A stretch of 57,024 nt of DNA, from assembly GCF_001311195.1 (NCBI RefSeq), contig NZ_BBAJ01000007.1:1-57024 (forward strand). The letters are read 5' to 3'. The notes under the pieces are model-generated. The model worked only from the letters and a program-made list of their open reading frames with translations. It made no database searches and was not told the DNA's origin. Every line of letters starts with the position of its first letter. Positions within the stretch are counted from its first letter, which is position 1. This document shows, one piece after another, positions 52,449-54,526 of this stretch. Position numbers and translations under genes: made by a program. This DNA comes from Lacticaseibacillus camelliae DSM 22697 = JCM 13995 (lineage in GTDB: Bacteria; Bacillota; Bacilli; Lactobacillales; Lactobacillaceae).

Positions 52449-53468
52449 ATGAAAAACATTGGGTTTCTAAGTTTTGGCTTCTGGCAAAAGAACAATTCGC
52501 TGGTGACCACGGCGCAGCAGAGCTACGACGAGTCGGTTCAGCTGGCGGTCGAGGCCGAGAAAATCGGGATCGACGGGGCGTGGTTTCGTGTCCACCACTT
52601 TGCCGACCAAATTGGCACGCCGTACCCACTGATGGCGGCCATTGCCGCGAAGACCTCGAAAATCGAGATCGGGACCGGCCTGGTCGACATGCGCTACGAG
52701 AATCCCTTCATGATGGCAGAAAACGTCATGGCCACCGACGTGCTGTCGAAGAATCGGGTGCAGCTTGGTGTGGGTCGGGGGTCGCCGGAGCAGGTTCAAG
52801 ACGGCTGGCAATACTTCGGCTATGATTACACCGAAGAAGAGATCAAGAACATTGCGCGCGCCCGGGCACTGAAGTTCCTCGACTTGCTGAAAGGCGAGCG
52901 GTTTGCCGAACCCAACGCCCAGCCGATGTTCCCCCAGGAGCCGGGCCTTCGCCGGCTTGAGCCTTTTTCGCCGACGCTGCAACACCGCATCTGGTGGGGT
53001 GCCGGAAGCCAAGCCACCGCAATCTGGGCCGCTGAGCACGGGATGAACCTGATGTCGTCGACACTGGTGAATTACGAATCTAACGAGCCGTTCCACGTCC
53101 AGCAGGCCAAGCAGCTGCGTGCCTTCAAAGACGCTTGGAAGAAGGCGGGCCATGACTTTGAACCGCGAACGCTGGTGACGCGGTCAATCATGCCAATCGT
53201 GAACGACCTGGACCGCCAGTACTTTGCGGCAGGCACCCAAACCCAAGACGAGGTGGGGTACTTGGCCTACCATCAGAACCCGACGATCTTTGGCAAAATG
53301 TTTGTTGGCGAACCGGACCAGCTGATTAAAGAGCTGGGCGAAGACGAGGCCATTCAGGAGGCGGACACGATTTTGATCACCGTGCCGTCCACACTGGGCG
53401 TTGACTACAATGTCCACCTGCTTAAAACCATCATGACCGACATTGCGCCGGCTTTGGGTTGGAAGTGA
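52449..53468 (+). CDS. Luciferase-like (LLM class) flavin-dependent oxidoreductase
   Basis: ATG 52449 follows GAAGGAGG. 339 residues, intact. The TIM-barrel family is shown by IGFLSFGFWQKN at the N-terminus, AWFRVHHFADQIGTPYPLMAAIAAKT, IGTGLVDMRYENPFMMAE and the loop LGVGRGSPEQ. Members use FMN (rarely F420) to oxidise small substrates; the substrate here is unknown. It has its own promoter and terminator. Confidence 0.92.
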   Translation: MKNIGFLSFGFWQKNNSLVTTAQQSYDESVQLAVEAEKIGIDGAWFRVHHFADQIGTPYPLMAAIAAKTSKIEIGTGLVDMRYENPFMMAENVMATDVLSKNRVQLGVGRGSPEQVQDGWQYFGYDYTEEEIKNIARARALKFLDLLKGERFAEPNAQPMFPQEPGLRRLEPFSPTLQHRIWWGAGSQATAIWAAEHGMNLMSSTLVNYESNEPFHVQQAKQLRAFKDAWKKAGHDFEPRTLVTRSIMPIVNDLDRQYFAAGTQTQDEVGYLAYHQNPTIFGKMFVGEPDQLIKELGEDEAIQEADTILITVPSTLGVDYNVHLLKTIMTDIAPALGWK

Positions 53469-53565: not shown

Positions 53566-53594
53566 TTGACAGCGGTTACATGACGTGGTATCTT
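53566..53594 (+). promoter_or_regulatory. Strong promoter of an unassigned structured RNA
   Basis: TTGACA (53566-53571, perfect), 17 bases, TATCTT (53589-53594). No start codon with a Shine-Dalgarno follows within 390 bases. Confidence 0.8.
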
Positions 53595-53600
53595 GTTGTT

Positions 53601-53985
53601 GGATGATGGGAGGGCGAGGAAGGAACAACCTCGTCAGAACCACCCGGAAACTTCCTGGCGATCCGACCTGTACTTCAGGGTTGACCAGGCATGCTGAGCC
53701 TTCCGATCGGTTTGGCGATGAAGACTGCGTGAGAAGCGCAGGGCCTTCCAGGGCGCATGGCAGGATGCTGCTATCACTTTTCCTAACTTAATAAAGCGAC
53801 TCAAAGCGGTGACGTGGCGAGGATAGCAGGCAGGGGTAACCCTGCAATAAAGGCCACCGGGGTACACTCGGTGGCAGGGGACACCATTTCGAAAGGAATG
53901 GTGCCCTTGTTGTGCGGTTAAATAGTGCGGTGGCGTCTTCCCGGATTTTCTGGAAATTTCAGGAAAATTCGGAAGGCGTTTTTTT
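53601..53985 (+). ncRNA. Unassigned structured non-coding RNA, about 385 nt
   Basis: Bounded by a consensus promoter and by a long terminator hairpin (CGTCTTCC at 53934-53941 pairs with GGAAGGCG, followed by T7). Inside there are many local stems: GGCGAGG/CCTCGTC, CCTG/CAGG, CTGCGT/AGCGCAG, a long-range CTGCTATC (53767-53774) with GATAGCAG (53822-53829), GCAGGGG/CCCTGC, GCCACCG/CGGTGGC (53853-53876) and ACACCATT/AATGGTGC. No frame has a ribosome site. It lacks the signatures I know for RNase P RNA, tmRNA, SRP RNA or 6S RNA. The gene on the right is on the opposite strand, so it is not a leader. Confidence 0.6.
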
Positions 53986-54107: not shown

Positions 54108-54479
54108 TTAGTTGGCAGCCGGTGTGCCGAAGTGCTTCAAATTAGCGAGCGCAATGCCGCCGCCCACAATGATGACGATCCCGCCGACCCAGCCCAGCAA
54201 GGGAATCAGCGCGACACCGCCACCGACAATAAGCAAGATCGCGGCCGCCGGCTTCACCAGTTCGGAATTCTTATAGTAAATCAGGGAATATATCCCCAGC
54301 GCCAGGGCAGCAAGTTTCAGTAAGAAAAAGAGGATCCCCCAGACGGAGGTGGTGTTGGTGTTCCCGTTGGCGACGTCCCCAATGGCCGAGGCGGTGATCA
54401 CGAGCGGTGCAATCAGCAGGATCACACCGGCCACCAGACCGTAGATGCCGTCAGCCAGGATCAGTGATTTAGTTTTCAT
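54108..54479 (-). CDS. Small multi-pass membrane protein, unknown
   Basis: ATG 54479 follows GGAGGAAG. The 123 residues contain about four hydrophobic helices (GLVAGVILLIAPLVITA, GILFFLLKLAALALGIYSLI, PAAAILLIVGGGVALIPLL, GGIVIIVGGGIALANL) with Gly-rich segments. It resembles small DUF308-like or unnamed membrane proteins of lactobacilli, but no family is certain. It has a good minus-strand promoter about 50 bases upstream and stands alone. Confidence 0.72.
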   Translation of the reverse strand: MKTKSLILADGIYGLVAGVILLIAPLVITASAIGDVANGNTNTTSVWGILFFLLKLAALALGIYSLIYYKNSELVKPAAAILLIVGGGVALIPLLGWVGGIVIIVGGGIALANLKHFGTPAAN

Positions 54480-54526
54480 CTTTCTTCCTCCAGAATATGA
54501 TAATGGCGTTAACAAAGGCCAGAGTC

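Follow-up and report, generated by a model that had tools for sequence, protein, structure and literature searches.

A structured RNA gene at the window locus

Does the stem-rich stretch between two protein genes of the window (the whole 57,024-nt stretch of Lacticaseibacillus camelliae DNA that was analysed) encode a free-standing functional RNA, and if so, of what kind? A preliminary description had proposed a structured RNA of about 385 nt with its own promoter and terminator. We observed the following features at this locus:

53566 to 53594, + strand: promoter, with -35 box TTGACA (53566-53571), 17-nt spacer and -10 box TATCTT (53589-53594) preceded by TG (from the sequence)
53567 to 53580, + strand: cre box TGACAGCGGTTACA, which overlaps the -35 box and fits the CcpA consensus TGWNANCGNTNWCA exactly (from a motif scan)
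53601 to 53914, + strand: conserved structured RNA core of 314 nt, from GGATG... to ...CCCTTGTTGTG (from alignment, fold and covariance model)
53877 to 53914, + strand: 3'-terminal hairpin GGGGACACCATTTCG...ATGGTGCCC, followed by TTGTTGTG (ends alike in other RNA types)
53915 to 53932, + strand: locus-specific linker, unconserved among copies (from copy comparison)
53933 to 53985, + strand: intrinsic terminator, a long hairpin with apex TTTTCTGGAAATTTCAGGAAAA here, followed by T7 (from sequence and fold)

The promoter is sigma-70-like, matching 10 of the 12 consensus bases with a TG before the -10 box, which confirmed the consensus promoter read earlier. From the putative +1 at 53601 to the last T, the RNA measures 385 nt, the length originally estimated. 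The conserved part stops at 53914, and the next ~18 nt and the lower terminator stem are locus-specific. The terminator hairpin lies at about 53933-53978 and the T7 at 53979-53985, so that the long terminator with seven T residues was seen in both sequence and fold; its apex recurs in many RNA copies. The claim of dense stems was borne out by a fold of -170.6 kcal/mol for 53566-53985 (z -4.42; 0 of 100 shuffles as good). Upstream, an LLM-class gene (named in the preliminary description) ends at 53468 on the same strand, and downstream a small membrane-protein ORF (54108-54515) lies on the minus strand, as had been noted in arguing that the RNA is no leader. We consider it near certain that the structured RNA gene at this locus is real.

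A family of copies in three genomes

A BLAST search of the element against its own genome (G000) returned 10 places, several of them truncated by contig ends. A covariance model, R1, was built on 17 full-length copies (alignment A1, drawn from 24 full-length copies of the window type, a count that leaves out the strongly diverged G018:C28). R1 matched 8 places in G000, 9 in G014 (Lacticaseibacillus jixianensis, name inferred), 10 in G018 (a third species) and 0 in G021, that is, 27 places in three of the four genomes. In the search of the genus, 3 of 30 genomes were positive. The window copy, itself within the training set, scored 344.6 bits. It belongs to a Lacticaseibacillus RNA family linked to the gene protA (described below): it matches R1, and nine of its relatives lie beside protA. 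Six copies in G000 are full-length. The half-copies C62/C89 and C10/C17 agree with the synteny in G018, and because they sit at contig ends we count eight loci in this genome, two of them inferred.

Judged by flanking genes in common, seven loci carry an RNA copy in two or three of the species. In 10 of the 12 same-locus pairs across two species, each member had a nearer relative among the copies of its own genome than in its ortholog; the window locus and the pair G000:C3 with G018:C16 did not follow this pattern. The window copy showed an identity of 0.896 to its ortholog G018:C24, against at most 0.767 to any G000 copy. Mean identity was 0.857 within G014 versus 0.702 and 0.728 between genomes, and 0.805 within G018 versus 0.777 and 0.728, while the mean within G000 (0.765) was not above that between G000 and G018 (0.777). 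These values suggest that the copies hold their places and evolve partly together, with a homogenisation that is not uniform.

The diverged copy G018:C28 (L071, 44.6 bits) has an almost unchanged promoter and is neighboured by phospho-beta-glucosidase-like and phosphoketolase-like genes (by eye). Genes of IS200/IS605-type TnpB or TnpA (by eye) were noted near copies L142 (G002:C7), L107 (G018:C33) and L088 (G018:C34).

Evidence that the element is an RNA

RNAalifold gave 85 pairs on the 17 copies, and 98.9% of the alignment cells were paired across this model. Changes on both sides were observed at 22 of the 85 pairs (shuffle mean 14.6; 0 of 500 shuffles as high). When the partner was slid by 1 to 3 columns, pairing went down to 36-45% and the pairs changed on both sides to 2-5. 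Four of five covariation measures beat all 500 shuffles and all slid versions; the fifth, further pair types, was not above the shuffles (483 of 500 as high). The covariation check suggested in the preliminary description thus found strong covariation among the homologues.

The coding alternative named there, codon periodicity, was also examined, and no conserved reading frame was found in the 24 copies. The most widespread frame was present in just 9 of the 24, and a peptide gene was rejected on this count; 253 of the 265 gap runs were not multiples of three. Taken together, these alignments indicate that the element is an RNA, rather than coding or a plain DNA repeat.

Two further RNA types gave a similar picture, with structure and counts taken from the same alignment and with no null control: 40 of 92 pairs were doubly changed in 28 copies of one type, and 20 of 104 in 15 copies of the other. 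Across 25 RNAs of all types the median fold z-score was -2.06, a moderate gap from the -0.47 of flanking controls. A variable guide-like segment was sought in the three alignments, and none was seen within the core.

Searches against known RNA classes and mobile elements

The Rfam check that had been proposed was run, and the window RNA had no significant family match. With the Rfam 15 covariance models (including RNase P, 6S, SRP, OLE, GOLLD, ROOL and HEARO), 0 matches reached the gathering threshold in the window; the best sub-threshold score for the window RNA was 19.2 bits against a threshold of 45, and lower scores were chance-like. ARAGORN found neither a tRNA nor a tmRNA at the locus. 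The stated absence of RNase P, tmRNA, SRP and 6S RNA is thus upheld, and neither Rfam 15 nor the literature searched contradicts the assignment to no known class. Among the literature matches listed, neither the RNA nor its partner proteins were seen to be reported. The RNA family is previously unlisted and is absent from the libraries searched.

An Rfam scan of 16 loci with other copies returned only a THF riboswitch, outside the RNA (RF01831, at 2482-2579 of L018 in G018:C5, near an RNA copy upstream of a by-eye tsaB-like gene). A phage origin was rejected when the phage collection gave no match to the element, and one 3'-end pattern of the window RNA type had 0 matches in viral contigs. A plasmid origin was likewise rejected, the plasmid search having given one chance-like 28-nt match only. 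A 22-nt match in G021 was discarded, as it falls in an unrelated tandem hairpin repeat. At about 1200-1800 of L012 (G021:C19), which that 22-nt match had picked up, we observed tandem GC-rich hairpin units of roughly 140 bp, starting with GCACCCTGTAGTCGGGCTCC, that are unrelated to the RNA.

protA, protB and the spread of the module over the genus

All nine protA genes found in G000, G014 and G018 (three each) lie divergently beside an RNA copy, and protB often comes after protA. The window copy has no adjoining protA and is in this respect an orphan.

A protA profile search of the Lactobacillaceae matched at least 12 of 397 genomes, all Lacticaseibacillus (12 of the 26 members listed), and 0 of the other 371. 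Of 395 genomes in the order the same profile matched 4, all Lacticaseibacillus, and of 398 in the phylum it matched just one, the genome under study; protA was found in no other sampled genus. With G024 included, 13 of 30 genus genomes carry protA. A divergent RNA gene was present at 36 of 38 protA loci in these 13 Lacticaseibacillus genomes (protA loci at least 38; split matches merged and one protB match, G024:C1:162214, removed). Of the two remaining loci, G024:C72 has an RNA convergent with protA (weak R1 match, E 0.017), and G002:C1 has protA with no visible RNA.

The 36 RNA genes have a promoter and, at the 3' side, a hairpin with a CTTTGnnGTG-like end; the complete ones measure 314 to 524 nt. 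Model R1 or BLAST to a multicopy RNA backs 26 of them and 10 were recognised by eye only (three in G004, two in G008, G006:C1 at 941741, G011:C12, C1 and C3, and G002:C6); contig ends cut four (G000:C62, G022:C15, G024:C53 and G024:C11). Most belong to types that R1 misses, with a similar 3' hairpin and CTTTGnnGTG-like end. Apart from the weak match at E 0.017, R1 found none of the other RNA types, and because sequence homology is this weak, the treatment of the types as one family rests on position, promoter and 3' end.

A BLAST query of five RNA types was positive in 8 of the 10 genomes of a separate run (matches at E <= 0.001, some short or partial). It matched at least 35 places in G007, at least 34 in G013, at least 23 in G011, at least 20 in G024, 11 in G002, 10 in G022, 9 in G006 and 9 in G021; G004 and G008, whose RNA types the query lacked, gave 0. 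The 22 other genomes (17 without protA) also gave 0, which is weak negative evidence because BLAST is blind across RNA types; G000, G014 and G018, with the window type, were silent to the same query. A search for six RNA types in the 17 genus genomes without protA found none. Hairpin-rich or long repeats (GAGCG...TTAGGGG... and others) were seen by eye directly 3' of several RNA copies, at L235 (G002:C6), L123 (G004:C29), L124 (G008:C5) and L207-L210 (G024).

Pfam gave no family above cut-off for 17 protA members, nor for the protB tested. Below cut-off were DUF488-N3i (E 0.14), SNaCT10 in 1 of the 17 protA members (E 0.0012, 19.7 bits against 27) and five further families in 1 of 17 members each. 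One protA and one protB had no match when run against PHROGs and NCBIfam, five proteins matched 0 families among the PADLOC anti-phage defence models, and neither protein matched a transposase or reverse transcriptase family. When the two profiles were compared using hhalign, they aligned over 220 columns (probability 98.0, E 1.6e-13), which indicates that protA and protB are homologous, as paralogues. Against sequences of solved structures, both profiles had best matches at E 0.2 and worse (among them keratin, kinetochore MCM16, a Woronin body protein and RNA15). For protA, the AlphaFold model (pLDDT 42.4, pTM 0.22, two-row alignment) was too poor for a structure search, and RNA-binding by protA is put forward as a candidate role only. 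An OB-fold in the N-terminal half of the protein was at first suspected from the sequence and is no more than a candidate. G011, G006 and G022 have longer versions of protA (ORFs of 444-583 aa), in which, by eye, protA seems to be fused to a further unit. The protA matches L131 (G002:C18) and L122 (G006:C1) have one stop codon within range, and just the ORF up to the stop codon was used.

Promoters and regulation

A TTGACA-type promoter precedes most copies in G000 and G018, and 7 of the 9 G014 copies have no exact TTGACA. We found an exact cre (consensus as quoted from PMC3146418) in 13 of 27 promoters of the window RNA type, against a shuffle mean of 0.007. In 27 promoters from G024, G007 and G013, nine had an exact WalR box, TGTWAH-N5-TGTWAH (consensus as quoted from PMC4168254; shuffle mean 0.047). 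Eight of these were among the 12 promoters of G024; the 28 G007/G013 loci yielded 15 promoters, one of them with a box. As the copies are related, neither the cre nor the WalR counts are independent cases. The two kinds of box are sequence matches, and they suggest that RNA output may depend on conditions.

A proposed ribonucleoprotein and the rival explanations

At the level of sequence, our comparisons established the RNA gene family, the covariation of its fold, the number of copies and the constant protA neighbourhood. The reading of a free-standing functional RNA in the preliminary description is supported by the multicopy family and covarying fold, and to it we add the multiple copies of the RNA and their link to a protein family. 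We consider it probable that it is a free-standing multicopy RNA, an orphan copy of a protA/protB module whose ribonucleoprotein would receive its RNA in trans. In this Lacticaseibacillus module, protA, often with its paralogue protB, is encoded divergently from such an RNA, and the window copy, one of about eight RNA copies in the genome, is an orphan that would act in trans. The two proteins would bind the common RNA fold to form a ribonucleoprotein. The RNA would come in trans from many genes whose promoters are of different types (a cre on the -35 box here, WalR-like boxes in another species), and the amount of ribonucleoprotein, or the protein fraction held by RNA, would track several signals. 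That protA/protB and the RNA form a ribonucleoprotein is what we infer, and it is the likeliest reading because of the constant neighbourhood, the paralogous proteins, their co-occurrence and the likeness of the RNA copies.

The main rival, which is compatible with a ribonucleoprotein, is a dispersing cassette, selfish or semi-selfish, in which promoter and RNA are copied into new intergenic sites, the fold serves its own spread and protA/protB are helpers or exploited host factors. We regard this as possible but unlikely. The many copies per genome would suit it, and so would the intergenic region that separates the LLM gene from an rsgA-like gene (by eye), where the RNA is present in G018 and absent from G004 and G002. 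The G024 copies (aligned for 15 of 18 loci) end abruptly after CTTTGnnnnGC and then run into locus-specific sequence, and any two of the five protein-less copies L197, L198, L202, L203 and L204 agree at both ends (10 of 10 pairs), 88-89 nt before GGGTATG and 6-7 nt past CTTTG. However, ends vary elsewhere: the alignment reaches less far upstream in L196, L200 and L206, and L114, L201 and L205 have a longer 3' flank in common, with a terminator. Terminal repeats or target-site duplications were not noticed by eye, the loci held in common by two or three species argue for stable positions, and protA/protB match no transposase or reverse transcriptase family. We give a similarly low probability to the idea that protA/protB and the RNA might be a new genome-colonising ribonucleoprotein element with no recognisable transposase or reverse transcriptase. 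It would be a promoter-plus-RNA cassette, its ends fixed in one species or more, that had reached tens of intergenic sites per genome and come under several host regulators.

A multicopy family of regulatory sRNAs that pair with mRNAs, the proteins being a dedicated chaperone or regulated neighbours, appears rather improbable. It would account for the multiple copies with own promoters of several types and for the condition-dependent output suggested by the cre and WalR-like boxes, and the LhrC of Listeria is described as a multicopy sRNA (PMC4132741). The constrained fold of over 310 nt, with no obvious single-stranded seed, stands against it. Since the copies of one genome mostly resemble each other and the core shows no variable segment that could match a target, the RNA is likelier to be a working or titrating partner than an antisense regulator. 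Chance structure, or a structured DNA repeat with no RNA function, is very unlikely; a fold z below -2 was reached by just 13 of the 25 RNAs (and by 4 of the 21 flanking controls), which would fit it, as would the one measure that most shuffles equalled, but the other four measures exceeded every shuffle and slid version, and promoters and terminator apex recur. Least credible is a cis-acting leader or attenuator. Some copies do have a same-strand gene within about 125 nt downstream (G000:C3, G000:C17), but downstream genes vary between copies and the next gene in the window is on the other strand, past the terminator, and a leader was dropped for these reasons.

Comparison with known systems

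To our knowledge, few bacterial genomes contain a large structured RNA in tens of copies, rRNA and tRNA aside. A genus-specific high-copy RNA family with its own protein partners points to an unrecognised ribonucleoprotein system in lactobacilli, and L. jixianensis 159-4, whose genome is public, would allow a direct test of it.

The OLE RNA is a large conserved bacterial RNA with linked, dedicated Oap proteins, and the present family is like it in having a large conserved RNA gene with dedicated proteins. Unlike OLE, it has many places per genome and no match to the OLE covariance model, and no OapA-type partner was found, the 17 protA members having no Pfam family above cut-off in a general Pfam scan. 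The titrating RNAs of the Csr/Rsm systems are several structured, promoter-controlled copies that hold a protein. The likeness here would be in the way of working only, as multicopy, structured, promoter-controlled RNAs possibly holding a protein, and the proteins of the window family, unlike those of Csr/Rsm, match no Pfam family above cut-off.

In the OMEGA RNAs of IscB/TnpB (HEARO), a conserved scaffold is followed by locus-specific sequence. The same arrangement is seen here, and TnpB-like genes (by eye) lie near two copies. However, TnpB is no constant neighbour and no tnpB/iscB partner was found; the constant partner gene is protA, and the 3' flanks of most orthologous loci are not conserved.

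GOLLD and ROOL (PMC12286853) and the 520-nt lncRNA of L. salivarius (PMC5643018) resemble the window RNA as large noncoding RNAs, some of them lactobacillar. The family differs from GOLLD and ROOL in having no Rfam match in the scanned copies and in being dispersed and multicopy, many copies having a divergent protein gene. From the L. salivarius lncRNA it is set apart by description, as a dispersed, multicopy family that often lies beside a divergent protein gene.
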